NCBI GenBank assembly: GCA_025558095.1
Contig: JAIVFI010000004.1
Span: 310,001 to 374,000 of the forward strand
Length of the DNA: 64,000 bases
Source: Hyaloraphidium curvatum
Lineage: Eukaryota; Monoblepharomycota; Hyaloraphidiomycetes; Hyaloraphidiales; Hyaloraphidiaceae
Direction: 5' to 3'
In this document: positions 39,375 through 64,000 of the stretch, piece after piece
Position numbering within the stretch: position 1 is the first letter of the stretch
How the letters are laid out: every line of letters starts with the position of its first letter
Notes under the pieces: generated by a model
The model's input: the letters and a program-made list of their open reading frames with translations, nothing else
The model's database searches: none
What the model was told of the DNA's origin: nothing
Position numbers and translations under genes: made by a program

Positions 39375-41311
39375 ATGACCAAATCGGCGGCACCGCGCAG
39401 CAATCCACGCGCAAAGGTGGGCGGAGCGGGGCGGCGGGCGCGGACGCCGGGGCGGCGGGCGGGCGGCCCCCGGGGAACTCCCCGCCGTCGGAGATCCGCG
39501 CCGCGCCAACGCGCGTCCGGGCGATGCCGCGGCGGCCGCTGACTCATCGCGCGCTCCGCTCTCCCAGAAGGCCGGCGGCGGGCAGCCCGGCGGCCGCGCG
39601 GACTCGCCCGGCGGCTCGCCGCCCCCGGAGACGCCGCCCGCCGGCGACGCGCACGGGCCCGCCACGCCGCGGGACGCGCCGGGCGCCCTCGCGCAGCTCC
39701 AGTGGGACCCCAAGGCGCCGCACGCCTTCTCGCTGTGGACGCCGAAACAGGAGCCCGGCGCCGCGCAGGCCCCGCTCGCCGCGCAGCTCGGCAACCCCGT
39801 GCCGCTGGCAAACGGCGCGGACAGCTGGACGAGGCAGAAGCGGCCGCAGGTGCGCAACGCATGCGGTGGGTCGGCGTGCCGGGGAACGCCTTCTGCGCCG
39901 CTGATGTGCATCGTTCCCCTCCCCCGCAGTGCACTGCCAGCGCGCATGCAAGAAGTGCGACAACAACAGGCCGTGCGACAGATGCGTCCGTGCGTGCTTG
40001 CGCCCGCGTGCGCCCGGTTTCCGCTGACCCCCTCCCCCGCCAGGCCTGGGCCTGACCGGATGCGTCGACTCGCAGCGCAAGTCGCGCAAGAAGCACGGCC
40101 AGACACCCAGCGTCGGTGACCCCGCACAGCTCAGCCCGTCGACCGCCGAGCCCCCGAGCCCGCTGCTCGCTTCCCCGGTCGACAGCCTGCCCGACGGCGC
40201 GTCGCCCGCCACCACGCGCTCGGCGTCGGTGTCCGCCTCGCTCGCGAGCTCCCGCGCCCCGTCGCCGCGGGCCTCGGGCAGGAACGGCGCCGCCTCGGCA
40301 TCGAGCTCGCGCCGCACCAGCGGGCAGCCCTCGTTCATCGCCAAGCCCGCGCTCTCGAGCACCGCGGCATCGACGGCGCCCTCCTCCGCCGCCTCCCCGA
40401 TCGCCCTCCCCGCATCCCGCCCCGCCTCGGGCCTGGGCATCGACGGCCTCGCACCGCTGTTCCTCGACCCCGCCCCCGCAAACGGCAACGGCGCCCTGCT
40501 CCTCCCCCTTCCCGCCGCCAACGGCCGCAAGCCGCGCGCGCGGAACCCCCCCAAGCCCAAGGCCAAGCCCGCCCCGGCCCCCGCCGCGCCCGCACCCCCC
40601 GCCGACCCCGAGCCCAGCGACGATGTCCGCCCGGAAGATCCCGCGGCGTCCGACTCGGCGTCGCTGTACAGCACCGCGCCGTCGCTGACCACGGAGCAGG
40701 AGCTGCCCGGGGCGGAGCGCTTCGGGAGCGCGGAGGCGTGGGAGGAGGAGGCGATGGCGGTGGATGCGCCCGAGGACGGTGTGTTGGACCTCGACGTGAA
40801 CGGGGAGGGAGACGTGGACGGGGACGATGAGATGCTCGTGGATGCGCCGAGGGGGCCTTCGCCCGAGGCAACCCCCGCCGTGGCATCCGCCGCGGCTCAA
40901 GCCGCGGTGCCGGCACCCGCGCCCGCATCCGCACCCGCAACGGCCCTCCCGTCGGGCGTGGTCCCCGCGCCCCGCCTGCGCCGGCGCAGCGGCACCCCCG
41001 TCCCCGCGACCGAGCTCACGGTCGGCGACGCCGTCGAGCTGCGCGCGCACCTCCTCAAGCCCTCGGCCGCCGCCGCCGCCGCGGACCCGATGCTCTCGCT
41101 GGCGGCCGTCGCCGTGGCGCTGCTGGACGGGGGGGAGCTGGACCTCTCGGGCGAGATGGAGCTGCCGCCGTGGTTCAAACGGGGGGCGGGGAAGAGGGTG
41201 CCGCTGCATGCGCTCGAGGTGGGGGGGAAGCCGATGTTCGGGGCAGGCTTCGGCACCGCGCTGGAGCTGGACCGGATCGCGGCGAGGGAGGCAAAGAAGC
41301 CGCGGCGGTGA
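39375..41311 (+). CDS. Zn2Cys6-like zinc-cluster transcription factor
   Basis: Four exons: 39375-39416, 39568-39865, 39930-39989, 40044-41311 (555 aa). The DNA-binding motif is split over three exons: RQKRPQVRNAC, VHCQRACKKCDNNRPCDRCV, then RLGLTGCVDSQRKSRKKHG. The cysteines follow C-x2-C-x3-C-x2-C-x5-C-x2-C-x6-C, the zinc-cluster variant with a QxVxNACxxCxKACKKC start known in many basal and basidiomycete fungi. The rest is low-complexity Ala/Pro/Ser and acidic sequence, plausible activation domain, with a folded-looking helical end. The third exon (60 nt) carries most zinc ligands. Targets are unknown. Its stop is 21 bp from the stop of the opposite gene, so the transcripts likely overlap. 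Confidence 0.82.
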
Positions 41312-41332
41312 CGTGCTGTACCCGAGGCCAAA

Positions 41333-42904
41333 CTACATCCTCGCCTCCCCGACGCCCCCCGCATCCAACCCCAGCAGCCCGCAGCACTCTGCCAACCCGG
41401 CCGCCAGCGCCGCGTAGCCCCTCCTCCTGCCCTCCCTCGCACCCCCGTCCGGGATCCCCTTGACCCGCACCGCGTAGGTGGCCGACGACACGGCGCCCGC
41501 CAGCGCGTGCAGATGGCGCGCCGCCGCCGCCGGGTCCGGCACGCCGAAGCACAGATCCCCGCCCGGCGCGCGGGGGAGCCGGTGCGGCGCGCGGGCGAGA
41601 AGCAGCAGCGGCTCCCTCAGCCCCTCGGGCTGCTCGACCCCGCCTTCCTCCGCGGCGGGCGGCGTCGACGCGAGGATCGACGCCAGCTTCGCGCGGACGT
41701 AGTGCACGAATATCCCAGCCGCCGCCGCCGCCGCGCCGTCGTTCCCCCCTCCCGCGTCCCCGGTGTCGGGCAGCGCGAACGCCGACGCCGGCAGCGCCGC
41801 GGGCCCGTCCAGCCCGCGGGCGAGGTGCGGGAACAGCACCGCCGCGCGGGCCAGCGCCGATGCCAGCGCGGCGGAGACCGCCGGTGCCGGGAGGGACGGG
41901 GCGTCGGGGCGGTGGGTGTTTTTCTCGCGCATGGTGGAGGCGGCGAAGCCGCGGAAGGAGGCGAGGAGGGCCGAGGCGTCCGGCGGCGGGCCGGGGGACC
42001 AGGATGTGCGGCCGACGTACGCTTTGCGGAGCGAGTCGGGGGGGCGGGAGGCGGAGAGCATAGCAAAGAGGTCGGATTTGGTGCCGCGTTCGTGGAGGAT
42101 GGCGATCCGGTGCGAGGGCGGGAGGGAGGCGACCTCGTCCGCGGACGACAGGGAAATAGTCCCGCCGAGGTCGGCCACGAGGTCCAGGTTGGATTGCAGG
42201 TGCGGTCCGTAGGCTGGATCAGAGATCGCGGCAAAGGTCACCGTGTTGCCCTCCGCGGAAAGCTGGCGGGAGAGGTAGATGCCCGCGGCGACGAAGCGCA
42301 GGTCGAGGGCGTTCAGGGGGCGGTCCGCCGGGAATCGCGGGTAGACGACGGTGACGTCGCCTGCCGCGCCTTTTGTCGCGTCGGACCGCGCGGCGGGTCC
42401 GCGGTCCTCGAGCATGTAACGAAGAAAGGCCCGCCAGTCGAGGTGGAAGTGCAGTACGAGCTCGTGTCTGGAGCACGAGGCCACCATGGCGGTGGGCCGG
42501 AACGCCGCCACTATCCTGCCGCACTCGGCCTCGGCCAGAGCTCTCGGTGACCGTGCCTCTTCTTTGGTTTCTGCATGTGCGCCGTCCGCAGCCGCACGCT
42601 GCGCGGGCTCCCACGGCACCTCCTGCCCCAGCTCCCGCAGAGCAGCCGTCACCCTCCCCAGCTTCAAAGACACCTGTCCGATCCTGACTGCTGGCTGTTT
42701 CCCGCCCGTTCGGCCTCCGGACGTGGCGTCTGCACCGCCGCTGCCCTCGCCGCCCCACGCCATCTGCACGCCGCTCCGCGCGCTCTTCCAGCTCTTTGGC
42801 GGCTGCGGGTGCTCAAACAGGGGCACGATGAGCTCGGGAGGAAGGGCAACGAGGCGCTGCTCGCGCGACAGCGCCTCAGCAAGGTCCTGCAGGATGCGGT
42901 CCAT
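41333..42904 (-). CDS. Uncharacterised protein, weakly DALR/DALRD3-like
   Basis: Single open frame of 523 aa from ATG 42904. I do not recognise it with confidence. Visible parts: an N-terminal segment with FEHPQPPKSWKSA, a Gly/Ala-rich linker, a middle alpha/beta-like region (GDVTVVYPRFPADRPLNALDLRFVAAGIYLSRQL ... ILHERGTKSDLFAML), and an Ala-rich helical end. FVHYVRAKLASILAS resembles the YxxYAxARIxSIxR motif of the DALR anticodon-binding domain of arginyl-tRNA synthetases, and its position fits DALRD3-type proteins, which lack the catalytic core. No synthetase HIGH or KMSKS motif exists. In-frame introns could be hidden in the Ala-rich parts. It is divergent from NMT1 (81 bp). Confidence 0.5.
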   Translation of the reverse strand: MDRILQDLAEALSREQRLVALPPELIVPLFEHPQPPKSWKSARSGVQMAWGGEGSGGADATSGGRTGGKQPAVRIGQVSLKLGRVTAALRELGQEVPWEPAQRAAADGAHAETKEEARSPRALAEAECGRIVAAFRPTAMVASCSRHELVLHFHLDWRAFLRYMLEDRGPAARSDATKGAAGDVTVVYPRFPADRPLNALDLRFVAAGIYLSRQLSAEGNTVTFAAISDPAYGPHLQSNLDLVADLGGTISLSSADEVASLPPSHRIAILHERGTKSDLFAMLSASRPPDSLRKAYVGRTSWSPGPPPDASALLASFRGFAASTMREKNTHRPDAPSLPAPAVSAALASALARAAVLFPHLARGLDGPAALPASAFALPDTGDAGGGNDGAAAAAAGIFVHYVRAKLASILASTPPAAEEGGVEQPEGLREPLLLLARAPHRLPRAPGGDLCFGVPDPAAAARHLHALAGAVSSATYAVRVKGIPDGGAREGRRRGYAALAAGLAECCGLLGLDAGGVGEARM

Positions 42905-56861: not shown

Positions 56862-57381
56862 TGTCTGGAAGAAGGCCTGCGACCGCACGGGGAGCACACG
56901 CGATGGCCTCTGCGGGTACCGGGCTGCAATCGGGGCGCGTTGCTTTTGGCCGCAGAGCCTGTGGTCCGGGGCGTGATATGGATCTGTTTACTAGACCAAA
57001 ACCCTCCAACCCGGTTCAACCCTCCTTCAACCCTCTTCAACCCTCTTTCAACCCTCCCCAACCCTCCCCCACCGGGCAAAACCCCCTGAGAGGCCACCTG
57101 CGCGCCGGTCCCGTCCCAGACACGCGTCGGCGTAGCCTTCTCTGCCCTCGAATCAACGCTACCGTCGCGAGGAGCCTCGCCTTCCCGCGTGTCGCGACGG
57201 TTTATAGCTTCCTGTCCCCGGGAGGAGACGAGGCCTCTGTTGAAGAACCCCTGGGGACATTCTGCACGAGAATGACTCCAAGCAGGGCAGTCTGAGCTCT
57301 AGGAAGGACTGTGGCGCCGAGGACGAGGCCAACTGATCCGAACCGTCGCGTCTCGACGCGACTTCTCGGGCCAGCGGAGGC
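56862..57381. promoter_or_regulatory. Divergent region upstream of transposase-like gene
   Basis: 520 bp between the RING/TRAF start and the DUF6729-type gene start. It contains the AACCCTC repeat (56998-57072). No other signal recognised. Confidence 0.4.
56998..57072 (+). repeat. AACCCTC short tandem repeat
   Basis: About seven AACCCTC copies, mostly spaced 10 nt apart by TTC/CTT linkers (TTCAACCCTC units). The complement, GAGGGTT, is loosely like TTAGGG telomere repeats but is not a perfect array. It sits about 310 bp before the transposase-like ATG. Confidence 0.8.
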
Positions 57382-60300
57382 ATGGGTCGGAACCGGAACA
57401 CGGGCGGCGCGAAGAAGGTCTCTGGCGGCGTGAAGAAGGCTAAGGTCCCCGCGACGAAGGCTTCGGACGCACCAAAGCAGACGAAGAAGCGCGGGCGCCC
57501 GCCAAAGACCGCAGCGCCGCCGGCCGGGCAGCCGGAAAGCGGAGGGGAGCCCGCCGGACAGCAGCCACAAGCTTCGGCGGGTGAGGCACCTGCAGAAGGC
57601 CGTCCTCAGCACGGAACGGTCTTCCAGCTCGAGTTCTCGGCCGCCCAAAAGAGGAGGTTGCCGGGGAAGAAGGTTACCCCGTTCACCCATGGTCTCCAGC
57701 CTTTTCCCTTCGACCTACGACGTCATCCGGAGCGCTTCGTCCTCCGGGATGGAGGGGATCCGATTTTCAAGGTCCTCAACGGGCCGGGAACCCCGGAAAT
57801 GGATTCTCTCGTGACGCTTCGGCCGACCTTCATCCTTTCCCCCTGGGAGGGCTACCCGGACTTGGCGCGGCTCATTTGTCCGACGTGCGGCTTGAAGCTG
57901 AAGCCCAGTGCTTGGGTTCAAGATCTCTTCCTCATGCGTGGGCCCCATGGAGAGTTGGAACTTCTTTGCCCCCGGCGATACGTTTGCGAGAACTTTGGGG
58001 AAGCCAAGGCGGGGAAGTGCACCTTCCAAATTGGTGCCCACAACCTGCTCGATAAAATTTCCGCGGACCTGCGCTACGTCGGTAGGAACCGCTCCCCGAT
58101 CGATCTTGTCGACCTCGCTCATCATTCGTCGGCAGTGTTCCCTTACGAACGGGTCGGCCACTCGTACGTGCACATGTCGTTCCTCTCGAAGGTCTATAAC
58201 CTGGTGAACGAGTGCGGGGCGGGCATGACGGCTAAGATCCTGAACGGTACGGCTCTTTCTGAACTGGTTCTTGCCCTTTCGTGACATGTCGGTTCCAGCC
58301 GACCTGGAAGCCGAACATCACGTCGTTGCGCTGCACCTTCAACACCACGGGATGCCGGGCCCCATGCCGGATGCGGAGACGACCAGCGCATTCTTCTCTT
58401 CAGGTAACCTTTTGTGTGGCATCGTGAGGACACGCTGTGACTCCGTTCCCATAGACTCTTCGGGATCCAAGCAAACGAGCATAGATTCCTTTGTCGTGAG
58501 ATCAGACTCGGCTGAAAACGACTCGGCACCTTCTCAGGCGGGGCCCTCCGACGGCACGACCGTACCGACGTTCGCCGGCCTCTTCCGGCAGAGCAGGAAG
58601 AAGCCGCAGTCGATCCAGGAGTCAATGGAGGACGAATTCTCGTGAGTTGGGCCGCGATTCGGGCTGAGCCTTCGCCTGTGTGTTGACTTGGCGTCAGAAT
58701 GGCCGGGGATGTGATCGACGCTGCTTTTGTGACTCGTCTACACGACGCAGTTTGGAACCGATACGGCGACCATCTTTTCCACTCATATCAGTACCAGGCT
58801 GACTGTGGGTTCTGGCGGAACGGATTTGGTTTCGCTAATTGGCTCATCTCCGCCGCGCAGGCCGGAACATTGCGCAGGACGGACTGGAAAAGACCGCACT
58901 GCACCAAGCTTACGTGCACGACGAGGAGAATGGGGGCCACAAGGCCCTCAACTCCAGCAAGCATGCTGACGGCGGTGCTGCCGCGGATGCCGAGAAGGAT
59001 GCGGCTGCAAAGGTGAACGGCGGCCGCGTGGCGGCCGAGTCCATGAGCAGCAAACCTCAGCTGATCAAGTACATCACCGTGACTGGTACTCCTCTTGGCG
59101 CGGTGAGCCGCTCCGCGCTGCCCATGCAGCGGAGCTTCTGACGACGTTCGCAGTACATGGCCCGGAACAAGGGTGACGACGCAGCCAAGCACGGCCTAGA
59201 GGTTCTTCGTAACTCTTTGCGGGCTCAGAAAGCTGCGGGCCGTGGAATCGACGGAAAGAAGCTTGATTCGGGGAAATCTGTCGGCGCCTTTGAGGAGCCG
59301 GGGACTCCGGTCATCGTGCTCCAAGTGGACCGGTGCTGTGGCTCGCCGGGCTCTTTAGCCCCACTCGTGAAGGCTGTGTTTGGCGATCTCGTGGTCGTAC
59401 GTCTCGACCATTTCCACTGGGTGCAACGGATTTGCGAGGACGTCGGGGTCACGGATTTTGTCAAGGACAAGATCATCGGCATCGTTTGGAGTTCCATTCA
59501 GTTCCCGGGAGTTGAGCTCCCCAGCGGGGAGAAGACGCCGCAGCCGATGCTGCCACGCGAGGAAGCCATCAAGGCCTTCGACGCCGCTAAGAACGAAGCT
59601 CTTCGGTACCACGGCGGTCTTCCTCCAAAGAAGGTCGAGGTGTTTGAGAAGAACTGGGCAAACGCTCGAGTGCACCTGGAAAAGGGGTGTTTGGACGATC
59701 CAGAGATTTTGTTCTACATCGCGGCAGACGGCTCAGTGATGGTTGCTAGGGGAAGCAATCGTCTCGAGGGCTATTTTCGGCTTCTGCAGGACTGGCTCGG
59801 CCGCCACGCGAAACTCGAGGACACCATCCTGCAGGAGATTGACCATTTCGATCTCGATTACATGCTGACCGTGTTGCGCATCAAATTCGGCGACTTTTGC
59901 GCCCAGCAGTTGGGCAGGAATCCGGCTCTTTGCCAGGTGCTGGAAGCTCGGAACCGCTTGGCTCGCCAGAATGGTCACCCTGCACAATGCAACCCGCTTC
60001 TGGAGGATCACGAGTGTTTTGAGATTCGTGCCGTCACCTCGGCGGAAGCACGGCAAGCCGGGAAGGCGATCCGGGACCAGCAGGCCCACGTCGCCGAAAG
60101 GGAAAAGGATCCGGCTGTCCCGAAGGCGCGGCCCGCCTCGCCTCGCGGATTCACTCCGAAAAGTCGTCCTTCGCACAAGCCGTCGCCGTCTCCGAAAGCT
60201 CGTGGTAGAGCCGCGCCGAACTACGGCATCAAGGCCGAGTTTCAGCGCACTGTGGCCCAGGTAAATGATTGCGATGGAGTGGATTCATGGTCTACTCAAC

Positions 60301-61398
60301 ATGTCTGCGTTCATTAGCTCGGGTCCGCCGTTGTAGCCACCTCAGGCTTGTTCTCGCCGGTCATTTCGTCTCCAACCGGGCCTTCGAGCCAAATGTCGCC
60401 GAAGGCTGCCTCTACTGCCGCTGCAAGCCAGCCTCTTTCGTTTCCTATGGAGGAAGACACGCTGGAGGTTCCCGTCGTTCCTTCTCTCTCTTCCGCGCCC
60501 GTGCAGGCTCTAAACCGGCCTGTGGAGCCTGTATTGGAGTGGGTGGACGCCATTTTCGGATCTCGGCTTCTGGGCTCATCCCTCGTCTTTTGCAGGACGC
60601 CGGCGCCCTTGCCCGTCGCCTTTCAGCCGTCAAGCGGTGCAATGGCCTTGAGCGGCAAGCGGAAACGTGAGGATTCGGTTCAGGGACGGGCAGATTCGCC
60701 GGCGGCACCGCGGCCGGCCTCGACGTCGGTTCCGGCGGCTAAGAAGCGGGCCATGCCGCCGGCGCCTGGGACAACATCGTCTCTGGCTCTACCCGATGCT
60801 TCCACATTGGCAGCTGGGCCCGCTTTGCTCGAGCACGTGCCGAGGCCCCTGCACTTGCCGCCCGAGATCTCGAAAGAGGCTTGGGCCGAGGCCCTCCTCG
60901 CTGCCTTCGCTCATGTGGCCCAGAAGCTCGTCCAAGGTGCTTCGACTGTGTCGGTGAGCGGCATACCGGCTTCTCTCTGCCGTCGCGCTGGTGGTTTAAC
61001 GTCAGTTGGACCGACAGGTCGCTCCTTCGTTGACCCTGCCGGAAGTTGCTGTTTCGGCCATGGAACCCGCGAAGCCCAAGGTGCGAGGGCATGCCCCAAA
61101 GGATGAAGCTCAGCTATGTCGGCGCTGCGGGCAGCTCAAGGAGGAGACATCCCGGGCTGCTCATGTCCATCGGCTGGGCCTTTGCGATGATGGATTTCGC
61201 CGTAGCGACGACACGCAGCGCAAGATTACCATCCCCGCTTACGGCACGCGCCGCGCGGAAGATGGAGGTCCCGACTGGGCCTACCTGGAGGGAGAGTTTC
61301 TCGACCTCCTTGATGCCAAGGATGCCACGCTGCGTGGCCCCCGTCTGACGGCCTACGAGGCGTTGAAGGTGGTTCTTGTGACGGAATTCCCGAAGTAG
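57382..61398 (+). CDS. DUF6729-type transposase-like protein, intact
   Basis: Eight exons: 57382-58246, 58299-58403, 58455-58641, 58698-58804, 58861-59102, 59154-60260, 60318-60953, 61018-61398 (1209 aa). An AT-hook (KKRGRPPK, 35-42) precedes a zinc domain: ICPTCG (Cys166, Cys169), then CPRRYVCENFGEAKAGKC, as in DUF6729 proteins of animal and fungal repeats. Exon 6 has LQVDRCCGSPG (Asp561, Cys563-564) and VVVRLDHFHWVQRI (Asp587), matching the DRDCC and RLDxWHFMRR motifs of that family, which look like part of an RNase H-like core. The end has a zinc knuckle CRRCGQLKEETSRAAHVHRLGLC (from Cys1117). No frameshift or stop breaks it. The exon 2/3 joins are inferred. Mobile-element origin is a family inference; activity is unknown. 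Confidence 0.78.
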
Positions 61399-62967
61399 TA
61401 GATCGGTTTCATGTATATCATTGTGGAATTCAAGCAGGGCAACTCATCTGAAGTCCCCATTGACCGTCCTGGTGAACACGGACCCGGAAGGCGATCGTAT
61501 GTGCTCGGATGCGGCCATAGAAGTGATTGAATCGGCTCCAGCGGCCATGGTAGAGGTAATGCGATGCACAGAAAGGCATGTGCTTGATGACAGGATTGAG
61601 GAGCTCGACACACCGGCGCAAAGTGGCACTACATCGGGGGAGGGCGTCGGACCTGCTAGTCTTGACCTGCTGGACCACCTACACCAAGCGAAAATCGATG
61701 GCCGGTAGCCGTTCTAGCTTCTGCGCACTTATTTACATCGAGTCAGCGTATTGCGCGGAGCAGACCGGGTTTGGTGCGTGGTTGCGCGCCATCGGCGTCA
61801 ATTTCCACTGACGAGGGGGGGGGTCTGGGTCCCCGAGGTGCTGCGGACCTAAATTGAGATGCAGGCCGAATTCGACGCTTTCATACTACTACTTGAGGAA
61901 TCGGCACGCCTCGCAGTGCTGCATTGCGTTTTGTGAGCGGGATGGCTCCGGAACGGCTCAAAATCGGCCAAAATGGGTCCGCGCCGACCGCCCGCGTTCA
62001 CGCACAGGCGATTCAATCGACGCGGCTTTTCGACAAATCGCGTATTTATATGCATTTCTAACGCCTCATAGCTGTGGACAACTTCACGTCCTCATGCGGG
62101 GGCTCCGCGAGGTCCCAAACTTGAGCATGCCGTGCATGGAGCTCTGGGAGCGCTCGCTGACCAGTAGAGGATGGAAGAAAGCCATCATCCATCGGAATGA
62201 CTTTATTGAACCATGTATGGTACATTGGGAGGGAAGTACAACATCTCTTCTATCCTAGTTGGTCTCGGGGAGGAGAACCGAGCACTAGCGTAGCGTGTAG
62301 TGAAGTTCCAAGATCGCGGTTCGGCGGCGGGTCTCAGAGAGTCTATCCAAGGGAGCCCTTGGATAGACTCCCCTTGGATAGACTCCCTTGGATAGACTCC
62401 CCCGAACTCCGCTCGGTTTCCGATAGCGATGGCTGGAGACCCGACCGGTGCCACGAGAGAGCACCAAGCCGGACGTCCAGCGGCCTTGTCGTCTGCTTCC
62501 TACTGCCTCTGGACGGCGGCGCATCGGAACATTCCTTCCCCCTCGGTTCGTGCTCCGCCGTTTCGTGGCACGAATCCTGACCAACGGCCGTGTTCTCCCC
62601 CATTCTCGCTCCTATCTGGACCGGAAAAAGATCCTCGGTGCCTCCGTTGGGGCAGCCAACGGCTGTACAGTGCTTGGGGGCCTCGCGATGTAGGTGCCGC
62701 GAAGCTCCTTTTCGACACCCTTGTCTGACGTCTTTGAACCCCTTCCTCCTCACTTTCCGGCCCGTCTATGGTCGCTCGCGCTCATGTTCAAGCCGGTTGC
62801 GGGCTCAGTTCGTGTGTGTGACGCTCTGGTACCCCTGTCTCTCGGCGGAACGTCTGTCGCGCTTCAGGGACCGAAACCGACCCGCCACCGCCTCCTCATC
62901 CCGATCGAGCTTGCATTTGGCCCTCTCCTGCTTCATTGCGGGCCGCTGATTGTCCTTCTGGGCGGAG
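61399..62967. other. Gene-poor stretch between transposase-like gene and recombinase
   Basis: 1.57 kb with no supported gene. It holds a G9 run (61815-61823), an AT-rich patch TATTTATATGCATTT (near 62043) and the palindrome/direct-repeat cluster at 62339-62399. Small frames here have no recognisable motifs. Early exons of the recombinase could hide in the last 500 bp. Confidence 0.5.
62339..62399 (+). repeat. 15-bp palindrome plus two further direct copies
   Basis: GAGTCTATCCAAGGG at 62339-62353 and its exact reverse complement CCCTTGGATAGACTC at 62356-62370 are separated by AG. Two more copies of the right arm follow at 62371-62385 and 62385-62399. A two-base-centred perfect dyad next to iterated half-sites is typical of recombinase or transposase binding sites. 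It lies 570 bp before the serine recombinase start. Confidence 0.85.
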
Positions 62968-64000
62968 ATGGAGCCCCAGCATGCTTCCAGCGCGCTGGAC
63001 GTGTCCCACCTCGTTTCGCTCGTTGGAAAGTTCGGAACCTATGCCTCGGCGGCCCAGCTCGGATCTGGGCGAGGCCTGCGCTGGATTGCCTACGTCAGAA
63101 AGTCGCTGGACGACGGGAGCGACAATCTGTCGCTCGTGGATCAGATCGGGATCATCCGGGACTGGGCAACCGCGCGCGGGGACATTGTCGTCGCGGTGCA
63201 CGAAGAACTGGCCAGCGGGGCACTGCCCAAGGGGCCTGGGGCGTTCGAACGGAAGGAATTGCATGCTGCATTCGTCTCCTTGCTCGCCTCGAACGACTAC
63301 GCCGGCCTGGTCGTCGTCCGGCTGGACCGGTTGTCTCGCGACATGGTTGCGACCCACAGCTACATTCAGGAGCTCACCCAGGCCCGAAAATCCTTCGTTT
63401 GCGTCAACCAGCCCGAGCTGACCTTCTTCTGGAGCGGCTCGGCGCCGTCGGCTACTTCGTGGCTGTCACTCGCAATGAACTCGCTCATGGCACAGTTTGA
63501 GCGCGAACAGGCGAGCTTTCCCCGTCTTTTGAAGGCGTAGCACCTCTAATCATTGTTCATTTTAGGTTCGCGAACGGACCAAGACATCCGTTGCTCAGCG
63601 AGTGCGCCGCGGCATCGGTGTCTCGCTCCACTCCCCGTTCGGGACGCAGTTCGAGGCGACCATGCCTGACGGCACGCGACGCCTTTCGTTCAGCTCCAGT
63701 GACCTCGTCGGACGCGCCCGTTCGAACGGGAAAGCTTCACCGTTGAATATCGTGGACCATCCGGCTGAGAGAGAGCAGTTCCTCTTGCTTGCCGCCTTCC
63801 ACCTGTCAGCTCTTCGGAAAGGCCAGAAACGGGAGCCGCGGGAGTACGCGGATCTGCTTTCCAAGCACTCCGTGAACGTCAATCATCGGAACCCAGGAAA
63901 GCTGAGAACCAACGGGAACTTGGTCAAGGCGACGATCAAGTCGATCAAGTTCTTCTCCTCCAGGGACGGCGGTAGCTTCGAAGCGGCGGTTGCGGAGCAA
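62968..64000 (+). CDS. Serine site-specific recombinase (resolvase family), 3' end outside window
   Basis: Exon 1 62968-63510 (181 codons from ATG 62968), exon 2 63566 to the window edge, 145 more open codons. The resolvase/invertase catalytic fold is clear: WIAYVRKSLDDG places Arg44 and the nucleophile Ser46, then SLVDQIGIIRDWATARG, then RKELHAAFVSLLASNDYAGLVVVRLDRLSRD with Arg118, Asp120, Arg121 and Arg124. The helix LSLAMNSLMAQFERE continues into VRERTKTSVAQRVRRGIGV in exon 2, as in large serine recombinases. The join needs a GC-AG intron (CAG|GCGAGC ... TTTTAG); a GT donor in the correct phase was not found. Exon 2 is basic and may hold the DNA-binding part. Such enzymes are bacterial or phage-borne as a rule; here the gene has a host-type intron and lies next to a transposase-like gene. 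Confidence 0.85.

Follow-up and report, generated by a model that had tools for sequence, protein, structure and literature searches.

The right-hand end of the window, a stretch of 64,000 nucleotides (C4:310001-374000) from the 31.9 Mb, 55-contig assembly of Hyaloraphidium curvatum, a fungus of the Monoblepharomycota in the chytrid lineage, carries a serine recombinase gene downstream of a large gene with features of a DDE-like transposase, and both lie within a DNA transposon that is repeated in the genome (Table 1). The initial annotation of this DNA had presented the recombinase as a spliced gene of a fungal chromosome; it is indeed fungal and very probably spliced, but it belongs, with one other gene, to a DNA transposon present in several copies, so that its meaning shifts from that of a chromosomal gene to that of a transposon gene. 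The identity of the gene, jointly with its membership of the repeated transposon, is held here with high confidence.

Table 1. Features of the transposon at the right end of the window (window positions unless prefixed with C4)
Feature	Position	Strand	Remarks
Target-site duplication GGTCCGG	left 56963..56969; right C4:375129-375135	.	7 bp; directly abuts both transposon ends
Transposon unit	56970..64000, on to C4:375128	+	8159 bp; last 1128 bp beyond the window
Putative DDE-like transposase gene	57382..61398	+	8 exons, 1203 amino acids in the gene model made here
Perfect palindrome GAGTCTATCCAAGGG-AG-CCCTTGGATAGACTC	62339..62370	.	15-nt arms, 2-nt centre; candidate res-like crossover site
29 bp unique to the C4 copy	62371..62399	.	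two further right-arm repeats; placement ambiguous (aligner: 62356-62384)
Serine recombinase exon 1	62968..63510	+	codes in 181 codons for the catalytic domain and the opening half of the long E-helix
GC-AG intron	63511..63565	+	55 nt, phase 0, within the E-helix coding region
Serine recombinase exon 2	63566..64000 in the window	+	remaining E-helix and recombinase-domain-like C-terminus; stop C4:374019-374021

The recombinase frame opens with an ATG at 62968 and, if left unspliced, closes as the annotation had stated at a TAG codon (63538-63540). Extension of the contig to the right, which the annotation had proposed together with a profile search, takes exon 2 to 64021, 21 bases beyond the window edge, and completes a spliced protein of 332 amino acids. 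The Pfam Resolvase profile (PF00239) matches exon 1 with 50.7 bits (E-value 2.6e-13, cut-off 23.3) and the spliced protein of the copy on contig C9 (public record P0001) with 63.8 bits, covering positions 2-143 of the 145-position model. In an 18-row alignment that includes other database recombinases, R44, S46, Q59, D120, R121, R124, E178, R179 and R185 are invariant, which bears out the earlier statement that the catalytic Ser46, Arg44 and the RLDRLSRD box are intact. With its Resolvase domain, nucleophilic serine and arginine set the protein is a genuine member of the serine recombinase superfamily, and the relatives of its catalytic domain outside fungi, where named, are bacterial.

In a fold model a second domain lies C-terminal to the catalytic domain, which begins near residue 38, and 243 residues can be aligned with Bxb1 at a root mean square deviation of 14.1, with low to middling confidence in the C-terminal part. 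A Terrisporobacter phage integrase is 24% identical across 86% of the recombinase, the only one of five phage matches to align so far. The protein resembles the TP901-1, Bxb1 and phiC31 integrases in its catalytic domain, long E-helix and, by structure, recombinase-domain-like C-terminus. Unlike phage integrases it is just 332 residues long, is encoded with an intron and shares its element with a putative transposase; in Pfam searches it neither scores against the recombinase domain PF07508 nor, ending where it does, shows a zinc-ribbon C-terminus with a match to PF13408. Judged by fold and similarity, its probable ancestry lies among the large serine recombinases (phage integrases), and it is not a standard member of that line.

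The intron reads GCGAGC...CTAAT...TTTTAG, its GC donor being preceded by CAG, and its removal joins ...AQFEREQ to VRERTKTS..., restoring the usual long E-helix. The contig C22 paralogue, which shares 35% identity across 293 amino acids (E-value 4e-47), has an intron of 74 nt (GTGAGT...AAG) at the same codon boundary and in the same phase, its acceptor having been picked by frame and homology. The public 332-residue record P0001 is spliced identically to the window model, and both splice sites and the frame are preserved in every full copy of the transposon. The proposal that the frame resumes at the E-helix after a 55-nt intron is thereby strengthened, and the gene is very probably spliced at this site.

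The C4 transposon runs from GGCGTGATAT to AAAAATCGCC; across copies the left end is GGCGTGATAT and the right end AAA(A/G)TCGCC. Searches with its left and right halves recovered four full copies (C4, 8159 bp; C34 and C46, 8408 bp each; C9, 8409 bp) and two partial ones, from the left part on C37 and from the right part on C39. The C9 copy has CGTGGGC on each side, and perfect 7-bp target-site duplications are thus present at two of the four full copies, C4 and C9; in the C4 region a random pair of 7-mers would match with a probability of 1.4e-4. Terminal inverted repeats were not found, the ends sharing just GGCG/CGCC with a terminal similarity score of 19 against a 95th percentile of 22 for shuffled ends. 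The C46 copy is a mosaic, C9-like up to the equivalent of window position 58357 and C34-like from 58471, with one flank in common with each, which would account for its unmatched flanks; it further has isolated indels of one base, with frameshifts in the transposase gene, and hence its contig may be poor. Between the two genes the C4 copy lacks 278 bp that are present in the other three full copies (junction 62226/62227), and no repeat was seen at this junction. Both partial copies stand at contig ends, where a left piece of 2.5 kb (within C37:525001-531647) and a right piece of 351 bp (within C39:480001-485554) are joined straight to TTAGG-type repeats, as if they were broken copies whose breaks had been healed by new telomeres.

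The large gene has introns of 51-75 nt, all of them GT...AG. Its public model from the C9 copy (P0003, 1171 amino acids) is 95% identical over the region searched, and NCBI lists the protein, from Hyaloraphidium curvatum, as hypothetical protein DFJ74DRAFT_662612. It has no match above the cut-off among Pfam families, and no match to NCBIfam, PHROGs or any PDB sequence. We recognized motifs that would suit a DDE-like transposase, namely (in P0003 numbering) D543 in VDRCCG, a DxxH motif as DHFH at 569-572 and E689 in SNRLEG, as well as cysteine clusters near both ends (C166, C169, C196 and C202; C1079, C1082, H1094 or H1096, and C1101). On these motifs the gene is a putative DDE-like transposase and presumably the active transposase of the element.

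The palindrome lies downstream of this gene and 0.6 kb upstream of the recombinase, and with 14-nt arms (30 bp) it is intact in all four full copies. Within the 246 kb examined there is just one other perfect inverted repeat of equal quality, a simple repeat. Neither the whole site (allowing up to three mismatches) nor the exact 14-mer half-site occurs anywhere in the genome outside the four full copies, and the half-site was not found at the transposon ends. This genome-wide restriction to the transposon fits an internal site rather than a chromosomal attachment site. Known crossover sites of serine recombinases have an asymmetric 2-bp centre, as this palindrome does with its AG, and we take it to be a candidate site of the recombinase.

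Resolvase matches number nine in the whole genome, four in the lineage of the window gene and five, at four gene copies, in a second lineage. On contigs C22 and C2 the second-lineage recombinase lies downstream of a GCR1_C-domain gene (score 39.3 bits on C22), the two contigs having common DNA that spans both genes; of the ten genomic places with GCR1_C, two have a recombinase nearby. On C22, five open frames upstream of the recombinase match a gene on C21 (29-44% identical, E-values 9e-21 to 3e-7) that exceeds the cut-offs of both NDC10_II and GCR1_C, and on account of this match we call the C22 partner gene Crypton-type; the C22 copy itself gives no NDC10_II score. The partner of the second lineage would accordingly fall within the definition of Cryptons, elements with an NDC10-like and GCR1_C tyrosine recombinase gene. 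Two further second-lineage copies, on C9, lack the Crypton gene beside their recombinase and have a right end in common with C22. Stops or frameshifts occur in three of the four second-lineage copies examined, and the nonsynonymous rate is close to the synonymous rate in pairs excluding C2. As far as these gene contents indicate, one recombinase family accompanies two unrelated transposon types, the putative DDE-like and the Crypton-type.

Several further observations concern the second lineage and the Crypton-type genes. About 110 bp before the second-lineage right end on C22 (L011:5580-5620) is a 41-bp near-palindrome, centred on 1 bp, whose arms are 90% complementary. The two C9 copies (within C9:337001-345000) stand head to head, joined near the recombinase start, as a large inverted duplication. 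At C21:158540-171380 and C49:9613-17025 Crypton-type genes recur every ~5.4 kb with the look of a tandem array, and there the Resolvase match is absent. On the minus strand of C22 (411160-416088) a frame of 1643 amino acids is flanked by identical direct repeats of 224 bp, and is apparently a recently inserted copia-type retrotransposon. Around the C4 transposon, a phage tail collar domain gene (PF07484, 34.4 bits) is encoded on the minus strand of this fungal chromosome to the right of the element (C4:375358-376002); the locus around its right side also holds an amidohydrolase-like frame (L009:5289-5696; PF07969, 55.1 bits for positions 238-339 of the 472-position profile), perhaps a remnant. 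Within the window, positions 40001-42000 reach 77% G+C against 59-73% per 2 kb elsewhere.

Tn3-family transposons combine a transposase, a serine resolvase and a res site with a 5-bp duplication and terminal inverted repeats of ~38 bp. Like them, the present element has a large (putative) transposase gene and a serine recombinase gene with a palindromic, right-sized, 2-bp-centred site between the two; unlike them, it makes a 7-bp duplication, lacks long terminal inverted repeats, resides in a eukaryote, contains introns and encodes a recombinase closer to the phage integrase line. Membership of the Tn3 family was rejected on the 7-bp duplication, the missing terminal inverted repeats and the large gene's want of a Pfam family above the cut-off.

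The arrangement also invites comparison with eukaryotic transposons. Dada elements, as described in PMC3706591, make 6-7 bp duplications, have no terminal inverted repeats, measure 4.7-11 kb, contain introns, and encode a DxxH motif after the second D along with N-terminal CCCC and C-terminal CCHC zinc fingers. By description only, our element is Dada-like in its 7-bp duplication, lack of terminal inverted repeats, introns, size, DxxH and cysteine clusters; in a comparison of zinc-finger and DDE motifs the spacings differ and the triad is seen without its first D. Unlike Dada, for which that description mentions no serine recombinase (PMC3706591), it encodes one. The same account places Dada with definable ends in small-RNA genes and gives them sub-terminal inverted repeats (PMC3706591). 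Repeats of the latter type were not found in our transposon; no tRNA was detected in the two joined flanks, no Rfam match beside either C4 end, and none at gathering scores in loci L019, L036 (C37) and L037 (C39). Because the tested insertion sites are not RNA genes, the transposon is not filed as Dada.

Pfam includes a KDZ model, and there is no KDZ among the Pfam matches of our element. Kyakuja, a KDZ transposon described with a 7-bp duplication, CA..TG ends and a KDZ transposase (PMC12730594), is disfavoured on this ground and on the GGCG..CGCC ends, the 7-bp duplication alone fitting. The rarity of serine recombinases in eukaryotes, which the initial annotation had emphasized, needs qualification by a fungal precedent, the six IS607-family genes published from Saccharomyces kluyveri (PMC2715888). 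Our element is like the eukaryotic IS607 elements (those of S. kluyveri, PMC2715888, and the Fanzor2 elements, PMC3627910) in being multi-copy and in its serine recombinase catalytic domain. Assignment to the IS607 family was rejected: IS607 proteins have the DNA-binding domain first, whereas in this recombinase the catalytic domain precedes the second one; there are 7-bp duplications; and the NCBIfam IS607 model scores 16.6 bits against the recombinase, below its cut-off of 110 (43.9 for the relative P0002). IS607 proteins are also shorter, at 192-254 amino acids in the table of PMC2715888. A single accessory gene family in mechanistically unrelated transposons recalls the TET/JBP genes, reported from 11 fungal transposon lineages (PMC12730594), and Fanzor1, reported in at least 5 transposon superfamilies (PMC3627910); unlike in those cases, the accessory gene here is a site-specific recombinase.

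The explanation that we favour, with a probability of roughly 0.6, is that the recombinase is an integrase-derived accessory protein of an 8.2-8.4 kb transposon that is moved by the large DDE-like transposase. The best reading of its two lineages is that two unrelated classes of transposon have acquired it as an accessory gene. The large transposase would insert the element and leave the 7-bp target-site duplications, and the recombinase would bind the 30-bp intergenic palindrome. Where two such sites came to lie on one molecule, be it a cointegrate, a tandem copy or an extrachromosomal multimer, Ser46 would cut at the central dinucleotide and the joined molecule would be resolved, as in Tn3. 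A resolvase role for the recombinase, taken by itself, is a tentative proposal at somewhat less than even odds. More doubtful is the fuller scheme of a two-recombinase transposon convergent with Tn3, in which a joined intermediate is resolved at the palindrome and the recombinase serves as a general helper for Cryptons as well.

A number of findings weigh against the favoured explanation. Matching duplications were not found at two of the four full copies, C34 and C46, and the mismatched flanks of C34 have no mosaic explanation of the kind available for C46, whose transposase gene is moreover frameshifted. The large gene was assigned to the DDE type by reading motifs, with the first aspartate of the triad not seen, and the C-terminal part of the recombinase fold model has the low to middling confidence noted above. 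The second lineage shows no comparable 2-bp-centred palindrome, its strongest having a 1-bp centre and lying downstream of the gene. The recombinase is the least-diverged section of the transposon, on seven substitutions, and is apparently maintained by purifying selection; its divergence is not significantly below that of the 3-prime flank (16/1106, p 0.14). Finally, no copy of the transposon without the recombinase was found, which leaves room for an old nested insertion of the recombinase.

Such an insertion would be in keeping with the recombinase being a passenger, that is a serine-recombinase element or captured gene that entered the ancestor of the transposon once and has been carried since without aiding its movement. 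Serine recombinases are themselves enzymes of mobile elements, two second-lineage copies on C9 do without a Crypton gene, and the stops, frameshifts and substitution rates of that lineage point the same way; against this, the recombinase of the window transposon is intact in all four full copies as well as least diverged, and the C9 copies match the right end of C22, as expected of 5-prime-truncated copies. We consider this account unlikely, with an appreciable minority chance. Another possibility is that the recombinase acts as a DNA-binding regulator, controlling transcription or copy number from the palindrome with little or no strand exchange. The position of the palindrome upstream of the recombinase and downstream of the transposase, and the extra half-sites in one copy, would agree with this, but the catalytic residues, needless in a pure regulator, have been kept, and we judge it improbable. 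It is more improbable still that the serine recombinase itself moves the element, as happens with IS607 or TnpX elements, and that the large gene is the passenger: the large gene does match no transposase profile, but 7-bp duplications flank the element at two sites, whereas IS607-type serine transposons are described as making none (PMC3627910; PMC6188088), and the half-site is absent from the transposon ends and the rest of the genome. Bacterial contamination or assembly error, to which the bacterial relatives and the possibly poor C46 contig might point, is refuted, in line with the annotation's own view, by four copies on long contigs of a 31.9-Mb genome, introns, a partner gene that is itself spliced and recorded under H. 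curvatum, and the two partial copies running into telomere-like repeats.

In the literature searched, with most subscription papers and Repbase outside the search, no eukaryotic DDE transposon was reported to contain a serine recombinase, and the eukaryotic serine recombinases described there are IS607-type transposases. The accessory recombinase favoured here has an unusual setting, which recalls some bacterial transposons and is uncommon for a eukaryote. If the explanation is true, two recombination chemistries would coexist within one eukaryotic transposon, unlike the IS607-type arrangement, and it would become testable whether some eukaryotic DNA transposons form intermediates that need resolution. 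A small recombinase of 332 amino acids that has resided in a nucleus, with a palindrome confined in its own genome to the transposon, could also serve as a genome tool.
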